Origin: a virus
Strand: one strand, 5' to 3'
DNA length: 30,541 nucleotides
IMG/VR virus record: IMGVR_UViG_3300042298_002676
Span: 1-30,541 of that record
This document shows, in pieces, positions 3,445 through 28,813 of the stretch. Both the position numbers and the translations under genes were made by a program. The notes beneath the pieces were generated by a model that did not search any database, was not told where the DNA came from, and saw only the letters and a program-made list of their open reading frames with translations. Position 1 is the stretch's first letter; each line of letters starts with the position of its first letter.

Positions 3445-6400
3445 ATGAAAAAGTTTACAAACAACATAGAAAACTCAAAAGAAAAAAAGATTAGAACCGG
3501 ATCGGCTTTGCCAGCTAACTCGGTAAATTTAGCATACTTTAAAGTTGATGAAGTAACTCCGGGAAATAGTTTAACTGTAGTAGATTCTTCTTCTTCAATA
3601 AAAGAAAACTTTATTGATTACAAAAACGAACAAGTATCTTTGTTAGCTAATGAAGTTGGAATGTTATTTGATCCGTTATCTGGAAACTCAAAATTTCCAT
3701 CTTCCGATATATACGTGACCAATTATAGAAACAGCCAAAGAAATAACACTAGCTATGTAGACGTAAATATTTTAAATCAAAATATGATTGGCGAAAACTC
3801 AGTATCTGATTATATTTATTCATACTATGTAAGTAGATACTTTACTGTCAAGTCTTTGATGAGTGGAAGTCTAGTACAAAAAGTTTTCTATAATGGCAAA
3901 GAATATTTCGACATTATCAAGACCTCTGAAATACAAAATATTGAAAGAAAAAGAGACTCCATAGACCTGCAAGACATAATGGTCTTGAACCCAGATGGCT
4001 CAGAGTATGTTGATCTTAATGGCAAAAAAAAGTACAGGGTAGTTCTTGAGTCATATAACGAAAAGCAAGTTTCTTTAAGCGAGAGATTGTACAAGATAAT
4101 AGTTTTGTTAGAAGAACCAAACCCAGTAAATTTGTTTTTGTCTTATCCAAAGATTGAATTAGACTCAGATAACTATCTCGTTAACCAATCATTAGCTTAT
4201 AAGGAAAATATAACGCCAATACAATTATTTAATGAAGAGTCGGAAGAAGCTAGCGTAGTAGATTATGGTTCAAAATACGACAATACGTATGCAGTTAAGT
4301 CAACGGAAAGTATACAAAATAAATTTTCTACAGGCGGGGTTTTCGACGATAGAGGCTACAATATTTATGTAAACAAAAAAGCTATAACAGACGACAGAAC
4401 GTACGAAGTTTTTAGTTGGAGAATAGTAGGCAAGATAAATAGAAGCTTTAACTATGCTAACAGACTAGAAGGGCTGCTAGGTAACTCTGCTAGGTCTAGA
4501 GGCGTGGTAAAAGCAGCAGTGATCAAGGCAAATACAAAAGCAAGTTACGTTGATCACCATAAGATTTTTACTAAGTTAAACTTAGACAGTAACCCAATCA
4601 ATATATTTAATTACCTTTTTAAAAATCCAATATCGGAACAAGCAGCTATAGTCCCGACTAGTTTAGACGACTCATATTGGACAGTAGACTTGTCTACTAT
4701 CACGCATGATCAAGTAAAAACTTTTGATTTTTTAATTCTTGTGGTCAACTCTAACACAAACATAGAGCAGTATCAGGCAAAGATAACAACATTCTTAAAC
4801 AATGGTGGCTGTTTATTCGTTGAATTTGAAGGCAATCCTACTCTTTCCGTAAAGTCGATATACCCTATCCCATTAACTGACCTAGTAAGCGGTGCCGCAA
4901 CGTCCGTAACTTATAATAGAAGCACAGATGCAGCCCAGTACCCATACAGCTCAATCAATGAGTACGAAGATAATAGATCGTGGGACATCAGGAGCGAAGT
5001 CTTTGACACGGGCTTCGGTGCTTATGGAAAAATAGCGCAAACAGTCTCAGCTTTTGCTAGTTCAATGAGCGCCTATCAATCAATATCAACAAACGTTGGA
5101 CCAGTTCTAACAGTTAATAAAGTAGGAGCAATTGAATCAGGGGGAGTTAGTGCTGGTACTATCATATCTAACACCGTTTCTATAAACTCAAAAGCTGGAA
5201 CAGATTACATCCAAGGCGGCGCTTTGCCAGAGTCGGCAAGCGTTGGTTCGGTGTTGTTAACCTCTGATGCAGAAGGGCCATTAAAAGTATTCTATAATTC
5301 AATTATAGTTGGTTTGATATCAAAGTACTTTACTTCAGGAAACTCCTCAAATAATTCTTCTAGCACGCTGCTTACACCGGTGCTTATGCACGCTACTGCT
5401 TGGAAAACTTCCTGGGCCATAAACGGTCCAACATCTAATGATGAGTATGACTATAACGACGTTTTAATAAAAAATGATAAATTAGATGAGTATGCTCAGT
5501 TCCAGATAAACAAAGATCAAAACGGAGACTTGTACAGAACTATAGACACAATGTCATACAAAGAAATATTCTTGCAGGATTTCTCTAAATCAGTAGACAA
5601 CTCATATGGGCAATTCTATAATTCATCTAATGATGTTATATCCTATTATATAGAGTTTACTAATGAAACGATTATACCCAAAAATGGAACACGTCTTACG
5701 ACTCCTTTGTCTTCTGGTATAACAACACCATACTACACCTACTCTATATCAGCTACCGAAGCCTTGGGCAGCCCGGTAGTTAAAACTACGACCATGTCCA
5801 TGCCCCTCAATATCCCTGCAACGTTTGGACAATTCTACATTAAAGATAGAATTAACTCTGTCACAAACAACAGAGGCAACCAAACTAGTGCAACAAATGA
5901 CGTACCGTTTAGTTATAGTTATGATTTTAAAACAAGTTATAGAGCGGTCAGAAGCACTGAAGCGTCACTTGCTTTTGATCTTTCTTTTCAAGCTGATTTT
6001 ACATTAAGCCTTCCTATCACTATCAAGAACTTTAAATCAGTTTATGAAAAAGTAGGAACACGAATTAAACCAGGGTCAGATGACCCGGTAGACACTACGT
6101 GGCAATTTGCAAGATCCAAGCAAAGCATATCAGTACAGTCAACATTTGATGTACCCATAACTAGGCTAGGAAGAGGCATGACAAACAAATATGCTTGCGT
6201 CCAAGACTTAATAAACTATAAGGCAATACATGTTACAGGTGACGCACAAGCGGGAAATCATTTTCCATACACTGGAGATATAGACCTTGGAAACACCTAC
6301 AAGCAATACTCCGTAGGCCCAAGAACAGGAGATGTTAATACCGGAAACTACGTACATTATCTTCAATGGACTCTCAAAGCCGCTGGGTATTCAGTTGTAA

Positions 6401-7083
6401 CCGATGGAACATTAGGATCACAAACTGGTGCAGCCTTAACTTCTTTACAAACAAAGGCAGGACTAGCCTATGTAGATCAACAGCTTGATTCTGAAACAAA
6501 GTCTGCGATGGCTTACGTATGGTGCACAAAACTGCATGAAGGTAAGGTAGATGATTATAAAAAACAAATAACAAAGTTTTATGAAAAAAAACCATCTATA
6601 GGCGCTGCAGTCATATCGTATATAGAAGCTGCTATATTAAGTGATCCAGTAGGGTCTGCTGCTACTGGTAGAATACGAAGAATATCATACACTGGCTCTA
6701 TCCCAAGCAAAACTCCAGATAAACTTGTCTGTAATTTTATAGTACAAATACCTGATAGCATTCTTGATAGAACAGATAAAGAAGATATTCTATCAATAAA
6801 AATTTACGCTGGAGCTGCTGATATAACAATATCAAGAATCCAGTTTACTAAAGAAGTATGCAGCCCAACTGCTGGCCTAACTGCTTTCAATACACGACGT
6901 GCAGCAGGTGCAAAAGAAAAAGACCTTATAGACGTAGCGGTTATAGAAGCAGGCGGTGCAAAAAGATTTTTCTTAAATATCAACAATCCTAAAGACAACC
7001 AATATAAATACGTACTGATACAGGCAAGCGGTAGTAAGCTTGGTGGCGCATTTGGACCCAACGCAATGCGGAATGTTTATTGA
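3445..7083 (+). CDS. Large virion protein with GATase-like and peptidoglycan-binding-like domains
   Basis: A 1212-residue protein starting at ATG 3445, behind a GGA six bases upstream. Residues about 354-470 form an alternating beta/alpha segment ('VVKAAVIKAN', 'FDFLILVVNS', then 'FLNNGGCLFVEF') resembling the glutamine-amidotransferase-like or DUF4350 Rossmann fold. I see no catalytic Cys-His-Glu triad in it. Residues about 950-1030 resemble a peptidoglycan-binding (PG_binding_1-type) helical domain: 'YLQWTLKAAGYSVVTDGTLG' followed by a Gln/Thr-rich helix. The rest is beta-rich and unrecognised. It follows the Ig-repeat protein after 16 bases and overlaps the next gene by 11. Cell-wall contact at the tail tip or baseplate is a reasonable inference; there is no sign of a lytic catalytic domain. 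Confidence 0.72.
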   Translation: MKKFTNNIENSKEKKIRTGSALPANSVNLAYFKVDEVTPGNSLTVVDSSSSIKENFIDYKNEQVSLLANEVGMLFDPLSGNSKFPSSDIYVTNYRNSQRNNTSYVDVNILNQNMIGENSVSDYIYSYYVSRYFTVKSLMSGSLVQKVFYNGKEYFDIIKTSEIQNIERKRDSIDLQDIMVLNPDGSEYVDLNGKKKYRVVLESYNEKQVSLSERLYKIIVLLEEPNPVNLFLSYPKIELDSDNYLVNQSLAYKENITPIQLFNEESEEASVVDYGSKYDNTYAVKSTESIQNKFSTGGVFDDRGYNIYVNKKAITDDRTYEVFSWRIVGKINRSFNYANRLEGLLGNSARSRGVVKAAVIKANTKASYVDHHKIFTKLNLDSNPINIFNYLFKNPISEQAAIVPTSLDDSYWTVDLSTITHDQVKTFDFLILVVNSNTNIEQYQAKITTFLNNGGCLFVEFEGNPTLSVKSIYPIPLTDLVSGAATSVTYNRSTDAAQYPYSSINEYEDNRSWDIRSEVFDTGFGAYGKIAQTVSAFASSMSAYQSISTNVGPVLTVNKVGAIESGGVSAGTIISNTVSINSKAGTDYIQGGALPESASVGSVLLTSDAEGPLKVFYNSIIVGLISKYFTSGNSSNNSSSTLLTPVLMHATAWKTSWAINGPTSNDEYDYNDVLIKNDKLDEYAQFQINKDQNGDLYRTIDTMSYKEIFLQDFSKSVDNSYGQFYNSSNDVISYYIEFTNETIIPKNGTRLTTPLSSGITTPYYTYSISATEALGSPVVKTTTMSMPLNIPATFGQFYIKDRINSVTNNRGNQTSATNDVPFSYSYDFKTSYRAVRSTEASLAFDLSFQADFTLSLPITIKNFKSVYEKVGTRIKPGSDDPVDTTWQFARSKQSISVQSTFDVPITRLGRGMTNKYACVQDLINYKAIHVTGDAQAGNHFPYTGDIDLGNTYKQYSVGPRTGDVNTGNYVHYLQWTLKAAGYSVVTDGTLGSQTGAALTSLQTKAGLAYVDQQLDSETKSAMAYVWCTKLHEGKVDDYKKQITKFYEKKPSIGAAVISYIEAAILSDPVGSAATGRIRRISYTGSIPSKTPDKLVCNFIVQIPDSILDRTDKEDILSIKIYAGAADITISRIQFTKEVCSPTAGLTAFNTRRAAGAKEKDLIDVAVIEAGGAKRFFLNINNPKDNQYKYVLIQASGSKLGGAFGPNAMRNVY

Positions 7084-24031: not shown

Positions 24032-24268
24032 ATGCTTGGTCTTGCAGTAGCCGGAGTAACTTTTGTGATGTTGCAATTATATTACAACAAGAACCAGAAA
24101 CCTAATCGTGGTAGCTTCATCGAGCCTACAGAAAAACAGTTGAGAAATAGACTAGAAGAATTTTTTACTGACGATTCATTAGTAAAAGCTCAAGATAAAT
24201 ATGACACTATGATTAAAATGGGCTTGAATGGGAAAGATGCCTACAGAATATTAGGCTGTTCAGTATGA
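24032..24268 (+). CDS. Small membrane-anchored hypothetical protein
   Basis: A 78-residue protein starting at ATG 24032, with GGGAG at 24020-24024, seven bases upstream. Upstream ATGs at 24011 and 24014 are in frame but worse placed. Residues about 2-18 ('LGLAVAGVTFVMLQLYY') form one membrane segment, followed by a charged helical cytoplasmic part ('TEKQLRNRLEEFF') and a C-terminal helix. Its stop overlaps the next start (ATGA), tying it to the glycosyltransferase gene. A membrane anchor or tether for the neighbouring enzymes is possible but unproven. Confidence 0.5.
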   Translation: MLGLAVAGVTFVMLQLYYNKNQKPNRGSFIEPTEKQLRNRLEEFFTDDSLVKAQDKYDTMIKMGLNGKDAYRILGCSV

Positions 24269-25068
24269 TAGACTTGTGCGTAGTAAACCATAACACTGCT
24301 GGTCTAATGAAGCGATTTTTGGATACCCTTCATTCTGACCTAGGCGATAAAAATAGGAACTGGAAGCTACATATAACAGACAATGATTCTACTGACGAAT
24401 TTATAGAGTTCATTAGACAAACTGGTCATAACTATCATATAGAAAATTTGTTTTTGAGAAAGAACATAGGGTACGCTGCTGCTTGTAACTATATGGGCAG
24501 CAAAACTAATTCAGATATAATAGGCTTGCTGAATTCTGATGTATGGATGACTAACGATGATGTAGATAAGATACAAGCAATCTTCGATAGCAACCCCGAC
24601 ATACACATATTGGGCCCTAAGCAAAGAGACGAACACGGTCGAGTAACGCATGCCGGCATGACGGGCACTGGCGCACAACCAATCATGAGAGGTTGGATGT
24701 TGAGTGATCCCGAAGATACAATGTTTAGAGACAGAGTAAACTGTATCACAATATCTGGATCAGCTTACTTTATAAGAAGAGAAGTATGGGACGCTATGTT
24801 AAACCATCCTAAGTATAAAGAGATCCATCCTGAGGCTCTAGGCGCGTTCCTGCCTACTCCACATTACTACGAAGAAACATGGTGTTCTTATTTTGCCCGC
24901 CACTTAGGCTATAACGTAGTCTATGACGGTAGCGTATCAATTGGACATAGCTGGCACGCTTCGTCGGCAAAGCCCGGAGAAGGGATCAGCCACGTAGATC
25001 ATTACTTCCCTATATCAAGAGAAATTTTTAGAAAAGCTTGCGATCATATGGGGATCGAACGAGACTAG
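24265..25068 (+). CDS. Family 2 (GT-A) glycosyltransferase
   Basis: A 267-residue GT2-type enzyme resembling rhamnosyl- and related transferases. It opens directly with the nucleotide-sugar-binding strand 'MIDLCVVNHNTAG'. 'HITDNDSTDEF' follows, then the metal-binding Asn-Ser-Asp at 90-92 ('LLNSDVW'), the acceptor-side 'ISGSAYFIRREVW' (163-175), and 'YYEETWCSYFARHLGY' with the catalytic-base-like Glu203/Glu204. No membrane segment is present. The start overlaps the preceding stop, and the next glycosyltransferase gene begins seven bases after its end. It likely transfers a sugar to a phage or host acceptor; donor and acceptor are not readable from sequence. Confidence 0.85.
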   Translation: MIDLCVVNHNTAGLMKRFLDTLHSDLGDKNRNWKLHITDNDSTDEFIEFIRQTGHNYHIENLFLRKNIGYAAACNYMGSKTNSDIIGLLNSDVWMTNDDVDKIQAIFDSNPDIHILGPKQRDEHGRVTHAGMTGTGAQPIMRGWMLSDPEDTMFRDRVNCITISGSAYFIRREVWDAMLNHPKYKEIHPEALGAFLPTPHYYEETWCSYFARHLGYNVVYDGSVSIGHSWHASSAKPGEGISHVDHYFPISREIFRKACDHMGIERD

Positions 25069-25075
25069 CTAACTC

Positions 25076-25981
25076 ATGAATGACCATATATTTAATGACC
25101 ATATATTTATAGCGATTCCAGCTTTTAACGAAAAGTTTACGCACATAACTGTAGAAGATGCTTTTGCAAAGGCGGATAACCCACACAATGTATATATTGG
25201 AATCTTTAACCAGAAAACAAACAACCTTGAATTTGAAGATTTTTCTGGTTACAAAAATGTGAGATGCGTTAATGTAACATATAAAAATCCACTAGGTCTT
25301 GGGCTGGCTAGGGTAGCTGCAGCAAGTCTTTTAGAAGATGAAGAATATTTTTTGCAGCTAGATGCACACACAATTTTTGCAAAAGGCTGGGACACACGAT
25401 TGCTAGGCGACCTAAAGGAGTTATTGCAGTATTGCGATAAACCTTTGATATCGCAATCGTTAGCTTGGCATCGTGAAAAAGATTATTTCGATAATGATCA
25501 AGCTTACATAAAAAACTTTTATGGAATTAAAGCTTACCCTCTTTATAGGGAAGGAGATGTTAAGACTCATCCAGACCATTCTAGAGAGTCGGAAGAAAAG
25601 ATTCTTGGAAAATTTCTTGAGCACTACCTTTGTTATGGTGGTTTCTTATTCGGCGAATCAAAATTTTTATATGATATTTCTTATAATCCATTTATATTAA
25701 TGGATCCAGAGCAAGAAATAACAGCTCTTAGAGCATCCACTAGAGGTTATAGGTTTTTTAGTTCAGACATAACACCTATATCCACATTGGGTAAAGGCGA
25801 ACATGGCGGTTTCACAGAAGAAAAATATAAAGATGATATTAAATATGAATTTTTAAGGTATGATTTTGATCAGACCAGAAAAGGCTGGCATGGCAAAAGA
25901 TTTTATCAAGGTCTAAATTTTGGTTTTTGGGGAGCTGAAACAAAAGAACTATATGATGAATATTTTAAAAAAATACTATAA
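25076..25981 (+). CDS. GT60-like polypeptide N-acetylglucosaminyltransferase
   Basis: A 301-residue GT-A enzyme. 'FIAIPAFNE' (11-19) starts the fold. 'YFLQLDAHTIFAKGWD' (91-106) matches the 'LQIDSHxxFxxGWD' signature of the GlcNAc family (PF11397, GT60), with Asp96 and His98 as the DxH metal site. 'LGLGLARVAAASLLEDEEYF' just before it matches the family's 'AR..a..ly..E.y' helix. 'MDPEQEITALRASTRGYRFF' (209-228) matches its 'EE..la.R..trGy' segment. Known GT60 members add alpha-GlcNAc to hydroxyproline of Skp1 or to Thr of trypanosome mucins. So a protein acceptor, possibly a virion protein, is plausible here. Its ribosome site is weak. A tandem 15-base duplication lies at the N-terminus. Confidence 0.75.
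   Translation: MNDHIFNDHIFIAIPAFNEKFTHITVEDAFAKADNPHNVYIGIFNQKTNNLEFEDFSGYKNVRCVNVTYKNPLGLGLARVAAASLLEDEEYFLQLDAHTIFAKGWDTRLLGDLKELLQYCDKPLISQSLAWHREKDYFDNDQAYIKNFYGIKAYPLYREGDVKTHPDHSRESEEKILGKFLEHYLCYGGFLFGESKFLYDISYNPFILMDPEQEITALRASTRGYRFFSSDITPISTLGKGEHGGFTEEKYKDDIKYEFLRYDFDQTRKGWHGKRFYQGLNFGFWGAETKELYDEYFKKIL
25079..25108 (+). repeat. Perfect 15-base tandem duplication at glycosyltransferase start
   Basis: AATGACCATATATTT occurs twice in direct succession (25079-25093 and 25094-25108). It encodes Asn-Asp-His-Ile-Phe twice just before the first beta strand of the enzyme. Because 15 is a multiple of three, copy-number change would lengthen or shorten the N-terminus without breaking the frame. 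Confidence 0.9.
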
Positions 25982-26012: not shown

Positions 26013-26414
26013 ATGTCAGATCAATTTAATGTTTATTTATACAACGCAGAAGTAATTAAAGTAGTAGATGGAGATACGTTCAAGATAAATATTGATCTTG
26101 GATTCGAAGTACACCTTGGGCCAAAGAGCGTAAGACTTTATGGCGTTAACACCCCCGAAAGTCGTACTACAAACCTTGAAGAAAAGAAGATGGGACTCGC
26201 TGCAAAAGAATTTACTGATCAATGGATTAAAAAAGCTGGTAGTAAGGTGAAGATAGAAACAATTCTAGATAAGAATGAAAAGTATGGTAGAATACTTGCT
26301 AGAGTATGGAACGAAGCTGGCGAATGTCTTAACACAGAAATTGTTAAGGCTGGACTAGCTAGAGAATACTTTGGCGTAGGCGACAAAACTTTTAATGAAT
26401 TTAAGAAGGCATAA
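26013..26414 (+). CDS. Staphylococcal-nuclease-like (SNase/thermonuclease) protein
   Basis: A 133-residue Ca2+-dependent nuclease-fold protein. 'VIKVVDGDTFKI' (14-25, Asp21), 'VRLYGVNTPES' (40-50) and 'EKYGRILARVW' (89-99, Arg93) are the SNase motifs. The residue equivalent to Asp40 of S. aureus nuclease is Asn46, as in some other family members; Arg41 and Glu49 are retained. No signal peptide, so it acts inside the infected cell, possibly on host DNA or RNA. It shares its last base region with the next start (ATAATG). Confidence 0.85.
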   Translation: MSDQFNVYLYNAEVIKVVDGDTFKINIDLGFEVHLGPKSVRLYGVNTPESRTTNLEEKKMGLAAKEFTDQWIKKAGSKVKIETILDKNEKYGRILARVWNEAGECLNTEIVKAGLAREYFGVGDKTFNEFKKA

Positions 26415-26818
26415 TGCAAACATTTTTACCATACGCAGATCTACAAGAATCAGTTCGGGTATTAGATTATCGTAGACTTGGCAAGCAGCGCGTAGAAACT
26501 TTTCAAGTTTTAAACATATTACTTGATCGTACACCAACAAAAGGTTGGAGAAATCACCCAGTAACACGTATGTGGTCAGGCTACGAATCTGCTCTACAGG
26601 TTTACCAGAATTATACTATCCAAGAATGGATCAATAGAGGGTATAAAAACAACATGCAGTTTGAGGAAATATTAATTCCGTCTCCACAAATGCCGAGCTG
26701 GTTTGGCGATGAAGAATTCCACAGATCACATAGGTCTAACTTATTAAGAAAAGACTATGAATATTATAGCCAATTTTTTGATGAGCCCACAGACCTAGAA
26801 TATAGTTGGCCAGTATGA
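26414..26818 (+). CDS. MSMEG_6728 / Pyr_excise family protein
   Basis: A 134-residue protein. 'MQTFLPYADLQESVRVLDYR', then 'RLGKQRVETFQVLN' and 'GWRNHPVTRMWSGYESALQV' match the N-terminal region of the MSMEG_6728 family, common in actinobacteria and annotated through PF03013 (T4 endonuclease V-like pyrimidine dimer glycosylase). The catalytic Thr2 of T4 DenV is not clearly conserved: here the second residue is Gln and the third Thr. A DNA-repair role is inferred from the family. Its stop overlaps the next start (ATGA). Confidence 0.8.
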   Translation: MQTFLPYADLQESVRVLDYRRLGKQRVETFQVLNILLDRTPTKGWRNHPVTRMWSGYESALQVYQNYTIQEWINRGYKNNMQFEEILIPSPQMPSWFGDEEFHRSHRSNLLRKDYEYYSQFFDEPTDLEYSWPV

Positions 26819-27222
26819 GTGTTACAGTTTATTTAGCTGGTGCAATGGATTACGTAGGCGACTATGCTCTTGGCTGGAGAAAAGAAGCTACCGAGCTTCT
26901 TAAGCAGAGAGACTATAAGGTTCTTGACCCTACTTCTATATCAGAAGACGATACTATGTCAGCTGAAGAAATAGTGCAAAAAAATCTGTTTATGCAGAAA
27001 CGATCAGACATTTTGCTGGTAGAATACATGCTAGAAGATAGAGCCTACATAGGCACTGACTTCGAAATGGCATACGCAAAACTAAACGATCAACCCGTAA
27101 TAGTCATATGCTCAAAGCAAAATAGTGATCGACCCTATATGAAATATATGTCGACAAAACTTGCTGACAGCGTTGCCGATGCTGTAGAATACATATCAAC
27201 ACATTATCCAACAAACCAATAA
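26815..27222 (+). CDS. Nucleoside 2-deoxyribosyltransferase-like protein
   Basis: A 135-residue protein. ATG 26815 overlaps the previous stop by four bases; a TTG at 26806 is in frame but less likely. 'VYLAGAMDY' (5-13), 'KRSDILLVEYM' (62-72) and 'GTDFEMAYA' (80-88, Glu84 at the nucleophile position) match the PF05014 fold. Members of this family cleave or exchange the base on deoxynucleosides or deoxynucleotides. It fits the nucleotide-metabolism theme with nrdJ and thyX, as a salvage or dNMP-hydrolase step. Confidence 0.78.
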   Translation: MSVTVYLAGAMDYVGDYALGWRKEATELLKQRDYKVLDPTSISEDDTMSAEEIVQKNLFMQKRSDILLVEYMLEDRAYIGTDFEMAYAKLNDQPVIVICSKQNSDRPYMKYMSTKLADSVADAVEYISTHYPTNQ

Positions 27223-27433: not shown

Positions 27434-27472
27434 ACCAAGCGTGGGGTTCGTCCCCACGCTTGGTTTATCTTT
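27434..27472 (+). terminator. Perfect 13-bp hairpin with T-rich tail
   Basis: ACCAAGCGTGGGG (27434-27446) pairs perfectly with CCCCACGCTTGGT (27452-27464) around TTCGT, followed by TTATCTTT. This is a strong rho-independent terminator shape. It lies just before the AAGG ribosome site of the next gene and may also insulate that gene's transcript. Confidence 0.82.
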
Positions 27473-27482
27473 AAGGAAAAAG

Positions 27483-28193
27483 ATGATTTACGGATTAGTC
27501 GTAGCCAGAAACGAAGAAGATAGGTATTTAGAAAAATTCCTACAAAGATTATCTACACAGGTAGATAAGATAATATTTACAGATGATTGCTCAACTGACA
27601 ATACTGTAGAAATAGCCAAGAAGTATGCAGAGGTATACTCTACTTCTGAGAATATGTTCATAAAGCACGAGGGCGCTCTTAGAGCAGAAGCTTGGGCTAA
27701 TCTTGGTAAGCACGCAAAGCCAGGTGACTGGGTTGTGGCAATAGATGCAGACGAGATGCTGTATACAATGGATAATGAGTCCATAAAAGACACACTAGAT
27801 AAGTCTCCATTCGATGTAGTCAATGTTAGAAGATGCGAAATGTGGGATGAAAATTGTTACAGAGTAGACAAGATGTGGGCCCCACATAACACTACTAGAA
27901 TTTTTAGGTATGCAACTAATGGAGTCTATAAAGATAAAAGATTAGCTTGCGGATCTGAACCAACCTACGTAGATGAATGGGTAAGACGTGGTAATTTTTG
28001 GTACGAGAACCCATTCGTAATGCAGCACTTAGGTTATGCAAGACTAGAAGATAGAGTATCAAAGCACGAGCGTTACATGACCCTTGATAAGGGTGAGTTT
28101 CATAACATAATACACTTACAATCAATATTGGATAATAACCCAACTTTAATTAATTGGGGTATTTTTGGAAACAAAGAGGTAAACCTAAAATGA
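27483..28193 (+). CDS. Second family 2 (GT-A) glycosyltransferase
   Basis: A 236-residue GT2-type enzyme. ATG 27483 is chosen because AAGG lies seven bases upstream; an earlier in-frame start at 27441 falls inside the terminator stem. 'MIYGLVVARNEEDRYLEKF' opens the fold. 'FTDDCSTDNTVEI' (32-44) and the metal-binding 'IDADEML' (87-93) follow. 'TTRIFRY' and 'HLGYARLEDRVSKHERYM' near the C-terminus are typical of GT2 enzymes that glycosylate from nucleotide-sugar donors. No membrane segment. Acceptor unknown. Confidence 0.85.
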   Translation: MIYGLVVARNEEDRYLEKFLQRLSTQVDKIIFTDDCSTDNTVEIAKKYAEVYSTSENMFIKHEGALRAEAWANLGKHAKPGDWVVAIDADEMLYTMDNESIKDTLDKSPFDVVNVRRCEMWDENCYRVDKMWAPHNTTRIFRYATNGVYKDKRLACGSEPTYVDEWVRRGNFWYENPFVMQHLGYARLEDRVSKHERYMTLDKGEFHNIIHLQSILDNNPTLINWGIFGNKEVNLK

Positions 28194-28813
28194 CAATCAT
28201 AAATAGCAAAGAAACAATAAAAGAATTGACTTATAAAATGTCAAGAAAAGAGCGCTTTGCTTTTGTTAACTTTTCTAGATCAGCACTGCTTGCTGCAACC
28301 GGAAAGATACCATCAGAAAAAAGACCTCCTAAGCCTTTTGTAAAGTCGATAGTCAATGCTTTAGAAGTAAAGAACAGCAACTATATGAAAGCTATCCCTA
28401 CTCATATGATTGGCCAAGGGTCTGGTTTTTCCGTGAGCGAGATCAAGAGTCTTGATAACGAAAAGATATATGATGCAGGGATGTTAGAATATTATTATGT
28501 TTCTAAAAAAGATATTTTTGATTCATTTGTTGAGCATTACATTAAATATAGTTCAACACTAGTAGTTTCTTTTCATGAGAAAAAGACTATACAAAAAGTC
28601 ATAGGATCACCTAAGCATTACTTGCAGGTTCCATACAATGACTTTTATGATAAGCTAGACTCAATTTATGAATCTATAATAGCTCATGAAAATATAGACT
28701 ACTGCATTCTCGACTGCCCAGTTCTAGCGTCCGCGTTAGCTCCTAAAATTTGGGAAAATTCAAACATGTCTATATTAGACTTTGGAAAAGTATTTACCAT
28801 AGCTAGCAAGTAG
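28190..28813 (+). CDS. Possible GT-D-like glycosyltransferase or unknown protein
   Basis: A 207-residue protein. ATG 28190 overlaps the previous stop (ATGA) and follows GAGG about nine bases upstream. The layout 'RFAFVNFSRSALLAATG' early and 'YCILDCPVLASALAPKIW' then 'MSILDFGKVF' at the end recalls the GT-D (DUF1792-type) fold, where a similar strand-helix-strand ends in 'DiGk'. The GT-D Asp-Gly-Glu motif is not present. 'LVVSFHEKKTIQKVIG' and 'YLQVPYNDFYDKLDSIY' are internal strand-helix units. The partner position after a GT2 gene supports a sugar-related role, but the assignment is tentative. Confidence 0.45.
   Translation: MTIINSKETIKELTYKMSRKERFAFVNFSRSALLAATGKIPSEKRPPKPFVKSIVNALEVKNSNYMKAIPTHMIGQGSGFSVSEIKSLDNEKIYDAGMLEYYYVSKKDIFDSFVEHYIKYSSTLVVSFHEKKTIQKVIGSPKHYLQVPYNDFYDKLDSIYESIIAHENIDYCILDCPVLASALAPKIWENSNMSILDFGKVFTIASK

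Follow-up and report, generated by a model that had tools for sequence, protein, structure and literature searches.

The PF11397 glycosyltransferases (CAZy family GT60) include Gnt1 of Dictyostelium and Toxoplasma and the polypeptide alpha-GlcNAc-transferase of T. cruzi. The GT60 activity is UDP-GlcNAc:polypeptide alpha-GlcNAc transfer, with hydroxyproline of Skp1 or threonine as acceptor, and the slime-mould relative glycosylates a protein of the ubiquitin pathway. The hydroxyproline that Gnt1 requires is produced by a 2OG oxygenase (PMC6939170). In GalNAc-T2, one of the polypeptide GalNAc-transferases (GT27), manganese is coordinated by Asp224, His226 and His359, and Glu334 is positioned 25 residues ahead of His359 (PMC4432651).

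Here we describe a PF11397 gene in a window of 30,541 nt, the whole stretch of viral DNA that was analysed (IMG/VR record IMGVR_UViG_3300042298_002676). The open reading frame at 25076-25981 (+ strand) has an ATG start and encodes a protein of 301 amino acids. Eight IMG/VR contigs carry identical or near-identical copies of the gene and a ninth has an 85% relative. The dN/dS values against two relatives are low (0.04/0.23 and 0.11/0.97, about 0.18 and 0.11), indicating that the gene is maintained under purifying selection.

Family assignment and predicted fold

The protein matches the Pfam profile PF11397, 'Glycosyltransferase (GlcNAc)', with an E-value of 3.3e-22 and 79.9 bits (cut-off 21), while the GT2 profile PF00535 reaches 15.6 bits and remains below its cut-off of 23.3; an assignment to GT2 was rejected on this basis. 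The protein belongs to the PF11397/GT60 family rather than to GT2, as the initial annotation had proposed from two motifs and a preceding 'Ala-Arg helix'. Both motifs are present in the product, YFLQLDAHTIFAKGWD at residues 91-106 and EQEITALRASTRGYRFF at residues 212-228; the helix corresponds to residues 75-83 and contains R79, which is invariant in all 54 aligned relatives, together with the preceding G74. In PHROGs the protein matches phrog_24687 'glycosyltransferase' (3e-15), NCBIfam gave zero matches, and a PDB sequence search found no related protein; fatty-acid-binding matches in the latter search were attributed to chance.

The PF11397 match spans residues 60-229 plus an N-terminal stretch and covers profile positions 2-41 and 97-262 out of 352, while canonical members match the profile to about position 350. 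This partial match, together with the absence of a histidine that is very probably a metal ligand (see below), identifies the protein as a divergent PF11397 branch, neither a canonical GT60 enzyme nor a copy of Gnt1. It shares with CAZy GT60 the family profile, the DxH motif and the GT-A fold; unlike GT60 enzymes, it has only 301 amino acids, no WH-His, Glu-Gln in place of Glu-Glu and no match to the C-terminal quarter of the profile. It is also encoded in a phage glycosyltransferase cassette, and no 2OG prolyl hydroxylase gene was recognised within the window.

The initial annotation was right about the family but not in regarding it as unusual in a phage, and it missed the loss of the histidine. 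A degenerate-pattern scan of IMG/VR identified 163 stretches that encode PF11397 relatives, the family has its own PHROG, homologues are found in Xanthomonas phage XacN1 (ORF334) and Stenotrophomonas phage RAS14, and the best structural neighbours in BFVD are phage proteins named 'Glycosyltransferase, GlcNAc' (A0A6J5MJ19 and A0A6J5MV95). All these phage proteins have family and fold in common with the window protein, but the canonical phage members are mostly about 400-430 amino acids long, keep the histidine and often have a Ser/Thr-rich gene just before them. PF11397 also occurs in bacteria: 24 of the 397 Pseudomonadota genomes sampled have it, as do 12 of 291 from Cyanobacteriota.

An AlphaFold2 model built on a 54-row alignment (pLDDT 83, pTM 0.87) has a predicted GT27-like GT-A fold. 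In comparisons with Foldseek and VIA-align, polypeptide GalNAc-transferases (GT27) ranked top, with a Z of 19.5, 3.4-3.8 A, about 250 residues and 12-16% identity; the nearest solved folds are thus mainly eukaryotic polypeptide GalNAc-transferases and not GT2 enzymes. B4GALNT1 and LARGE1 are at most one Z unit from the top match and chondroitin polymerase is one unit lower, and with all of these so close in Z the fold does not fix the acceptor. A solved Gnt1 structure for comparison was not found. The model shares with GT27 the GT-A fold and, at matching places, the DxH motif and a Glu: D96-A-H98 (25361-25369, + strand), the presumed metal/UDP site, does not vary at D or H in any of the 54 relatives, and E212 (25709-25711, + strand) is near-invariant (52 E and 2 D). 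GT27 enzymes differ in having a lectin domain, for which 301 amino acids leave no room, and His359.

The transferase cassette and its candidate acceptors

The ordinary GT2 genes mentioned in the initial annotation are real and lie on the + strand, as do the genes between and just after them: one (24265-25068; PF00535, 6.7e-12) ends 7 bases upstream of the PF11397 gene and the second, conserved in the cassette, lies at 27441-28193 (PF00535, 6.8e-13; PF13704, 4e-11). Between the transferases are genes for an SNase-family nuclease (26013-26414; PF00565, 2.5e-15), a pyrimidine-dimer DNA glycosylase family protein (26414-26818; PF03013, 9.9e-23) and a nucleoside 2-deoxyribosyltransferase-like protein (26806-27222; PF15891, 5.7e-9).

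A fourth transferase-fold gene at 28154-28813, previously overlooked, probably has its true start at an internal ATG at 28190. Its predicted structure (AlphaFold2, pLDDT 88) resembles GT-D: the DUF1792 structures 5v4a, 4pfx and 4phr match with a Z of 17, TarA/TagA with 10.6 and the rest with about 5 or less. The fold is thus common to this last gene of the cassette and the GT-D/DUF1792 glycosyltransferases of streptococci, but the sequence gives only a hint of GT-D (Pfam E 0.0035), a match that falls far short of the cut-off. The usual N-terminal acidic motif is apparently replaced, and the protein may be a divergent or inactive GT-D.

The four transferase genes (GT2, PF11397, GT2, GT-D-fold) recur together across the clade as a co-directional block, surrounded by genes for ribonucleotide reductase (RNR), ThyX and a DnaB-like helicase. 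The block is also kept in the lineage of L030, L031, L033 and L035, where PF11397 identity is about 43-45%, and is absent as such from the relative L036. The PF11397 gene is therefore part of a conserved four-transferase cassette, a feature newly seen here. Several relatives have two PF11397 copies; in L007 they are tandem paralogues (4992-5888 and 5920-6879) that are about 64% identical, while the window is single-copy. Elsewhere in the window, the product of 3445-7083 is 1212 aa long, carries PF01471, a peptidoglycan-binding domain, around residue 1000, and is probably a virion-associated lysin.

Our leading, still tentative reading is that the gene encodes a divergent but functional PF11397 transferase that contributes to glycan assembly, with a phage protein as the most likely carrier. 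The PF11397 score, the conserved DxH motif and E212, the confident GT-A model, the low dN/dS and the conserved cassette all suggest this. From what is known of the family, the enzyme would use a UDP-sugar, probably UDP-GlcNAc or UDP-GalNAc, and would cooperate with the two GT2 enzymes and the GT-D-fold protein of the block; the conserved co-occurrence of the four genes suggests a short glycan as the probable product of the cassette. The most likely acceptor would be a phage structural protein, modified at Ser/Thr or at a hydroxylated residue, as other phage members adjoin genes for Ser/Thr-rich or collagen-repeat proteins.

To survey this gene context, the directly upstream same-strand gene was scored at 27 non-redundant phage loci whose PF11397 protein is longer and has the His. 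The upstream gene is Ser/Thr-rich in 11/21 loci versus 19/192 background genes, with a Fisher P of 1e-5 that is merely indicative, as the cut-off of 20% or more Ser/Thr was picked once the data had been inspected; a rank test without cut-off gives 4e-5. The downstream gene is Ser/Thr-rich in just 1/26 loci. In L075 the gene directly upstream encodes a collagen-repeat protein (PF01391, 1e-47), and Ser/Thr-rich collagen-like (GSSGTSG) proteins are encoded immediately 5' of canonical PF11397 genes in both L075 (2610-4925) and L079 (1-831). In L055, an HtrL/YibB-family gene (PF09612; 3305-4999) takes this position, and in L063, L070, L071 and L089 genes of similar size precede the PF11397 gene.

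Proteomics identified at least two glycoproteins in phage XacN1, and the authors suggest the phage's own two transferases, ORF334 included, as their makers (PMC5852040); the link to ORF334 rests on that suggestion. XacN1 has no recognised tail fibre. These glycoproteins and the Ser/Thr-rich or collagen-like upstream genes make proteins plausible acceptors for the PF11397 family in phages. The initial annotation had taken the family to point to a protein acceptor, and the context of the other phage members and the XacN1 glycoproteins lend this indirect support, but the surroundings of the window gene itself do not: in its clade a Ser/Thr-rich upstream gene was found in 0/10 cases, and the neighbours are other glycosyltransferases and nucleotide or DNA enzymes rather than fibre genes.

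A GT2-rich cassette fits lipid-linked or surface glycans equally well, and during infection it may instead remodel a polysaccharide of the host surface (LPS, capsule or similar), for example to block superinfection, with the PF11397 enzyme adding one sugar. The two GT2 proteins match moron/GtrB-like O-antigen conversion PHROG families, one of them weakly, and weakly match exopolysaccharide and teichuronic-acid enzymes, and the near structural matches of the PF11397 protein include the cell-wall or polysaccharide enzymes TarP, TarS, RmlT and K4CP. However, none of the scanned window genes matched a GtrA- or GtrC-like, membrane-anchored partner, and the acceptors best known for PF11397 are polypeptides (PMC6939170); we consider host-glycan remodelling rather unlikely, though worth keeping in mind.

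The metal site and the His-less clade

Residue T237 (25784-25786, + strand) occupies the place of the WH-His of members outside the window's clade. All 14 aligned rows of the window's clade have T or S in this column, against H in 40/40 others, and the distance from the Glu to this His is 25 residues in all 40 His-bearing relatives, exactly the spacing between Glu334 and His359 of GalNAc-T2, whose Asp224 and His226 are the counterparts of D96 and H98. Spacing and fold together make the WH-His a very probable third metal ligand. The window thus belongs to a clade, newly seen here, without the His that all 40 other examined members keep.

In the tree, a branch supported at 100/99 separates the 14 His-less rows from the others; L036 is on a long branch and its placement in this clade is less sure. 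The usual Glu-Glu is replaced by Glu-Gln or Asp-Gln in 13 of the 14 rows, L036 being the exception. All 14 rows keep a lysine, K240, three residues past T237; that K240 substitutes for the metal or takes over charge neutralisation is speculation.

With this His lost and the C-terminal part differing, the window's clade probably has an altered use of metal or an altered rate, in a gene still under purifying selection. The loss could reduce the activity of the window enzyme, and the protein might even be a catalytically weakened or regulatory member that has perhaps lost a C-terminal acceptor-binding part too: besides the exchanges at the His and the Glu pair, the profile match stops at position 262 of 352, and tandem PF11397 paralogues exist. 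This is improbable given the retained DxH motif and E212, the dN/dS of about 0.1-0.2 and the good GT-A model, and the conserved K240 could compensate in charge.

Oxygenases and possible hydroxylated acceptors

The acceptor residues of the His-less branch might first be hydroxylated by phage 2OG-Fe(II) oxygenases, which would give phages an equivalent of the PhyA-Gnt1 pathway. PF13640 genes are present in 7/7 His-less records of at least 60 kb (33 in 916 kb, 3.6 per 100 kb) and in 4/15 records of the His-bearing branch (9 in 2322 kb, 0.39 per 100 kb). This association is confounded by shared phage ancestry, with about four or five lineages only, and cyanophages carry many 2OG oxygenases as well as halogenases (PMC3037559), so that it is a lead rather than a result. 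The larger records of relatives have between one and eight PF13640 genes, which adjoin PF11397 only in L036 and L037 and lie some 1.2 kb away in L022. In L036, fibre-like genes are followed directly by a tightly packed group in which oxygenase genes flank PF11397 on both sides. We regard pre-hydroxylation of the acceptor as doubtful; a general pairing of prolyl hydroxylase (P4H) and GT60 was rejected, as most His-bearing records are without a PF13640 gene.

At 3088-9158 of L036, two fibre-like genes are followed end to end by 2OG oxygenases, the PF11397 transferase and a radical-SAM-like gene, an arrangement that resembles a post-translational modification island. The relative G001 (210,831 bases with a 119-base terminal repeat; L094-L104) has about nine 2OG-Fe(II) oxygenase-like genes clustered in its fibre region (195-211 kb plus the first 2 kb), accompanied by a tryptophan-halogenase-like flavoprotein and collagen-like proteins with GPT repeats; its PF11397 genes are far from this cluster, at 67-71 kb.

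Glycosylation of phage DNA at a hypermodified base, to which the neighbouring ribonucleotide reductase, ThyX and deoxyribosyltransferase-like genes and a dCMP deaminase in relatives might point, is very improbable, because PF00303 (thymidylate synthase/hydroxymethylase) is absent from 40 IMG/VR records of relatives, including those of 202 kb and 211 kb (XacN1 and RAS14 have one PF00303 gene each), and TET/JBP matches in the relatives' records are all below the cut-off; the cassette also has no known base-hydroxylation step.

The clade without an otherwise fixed metal ligand is a natural experiment in how GT-A enzymes replace their metal. Protein glycosylation in phages is poorly known, and PF11397 genes beside genes for Ser/Thr-rich or collagen-like proteins offer a testable pairing of enzyme and acceptor.
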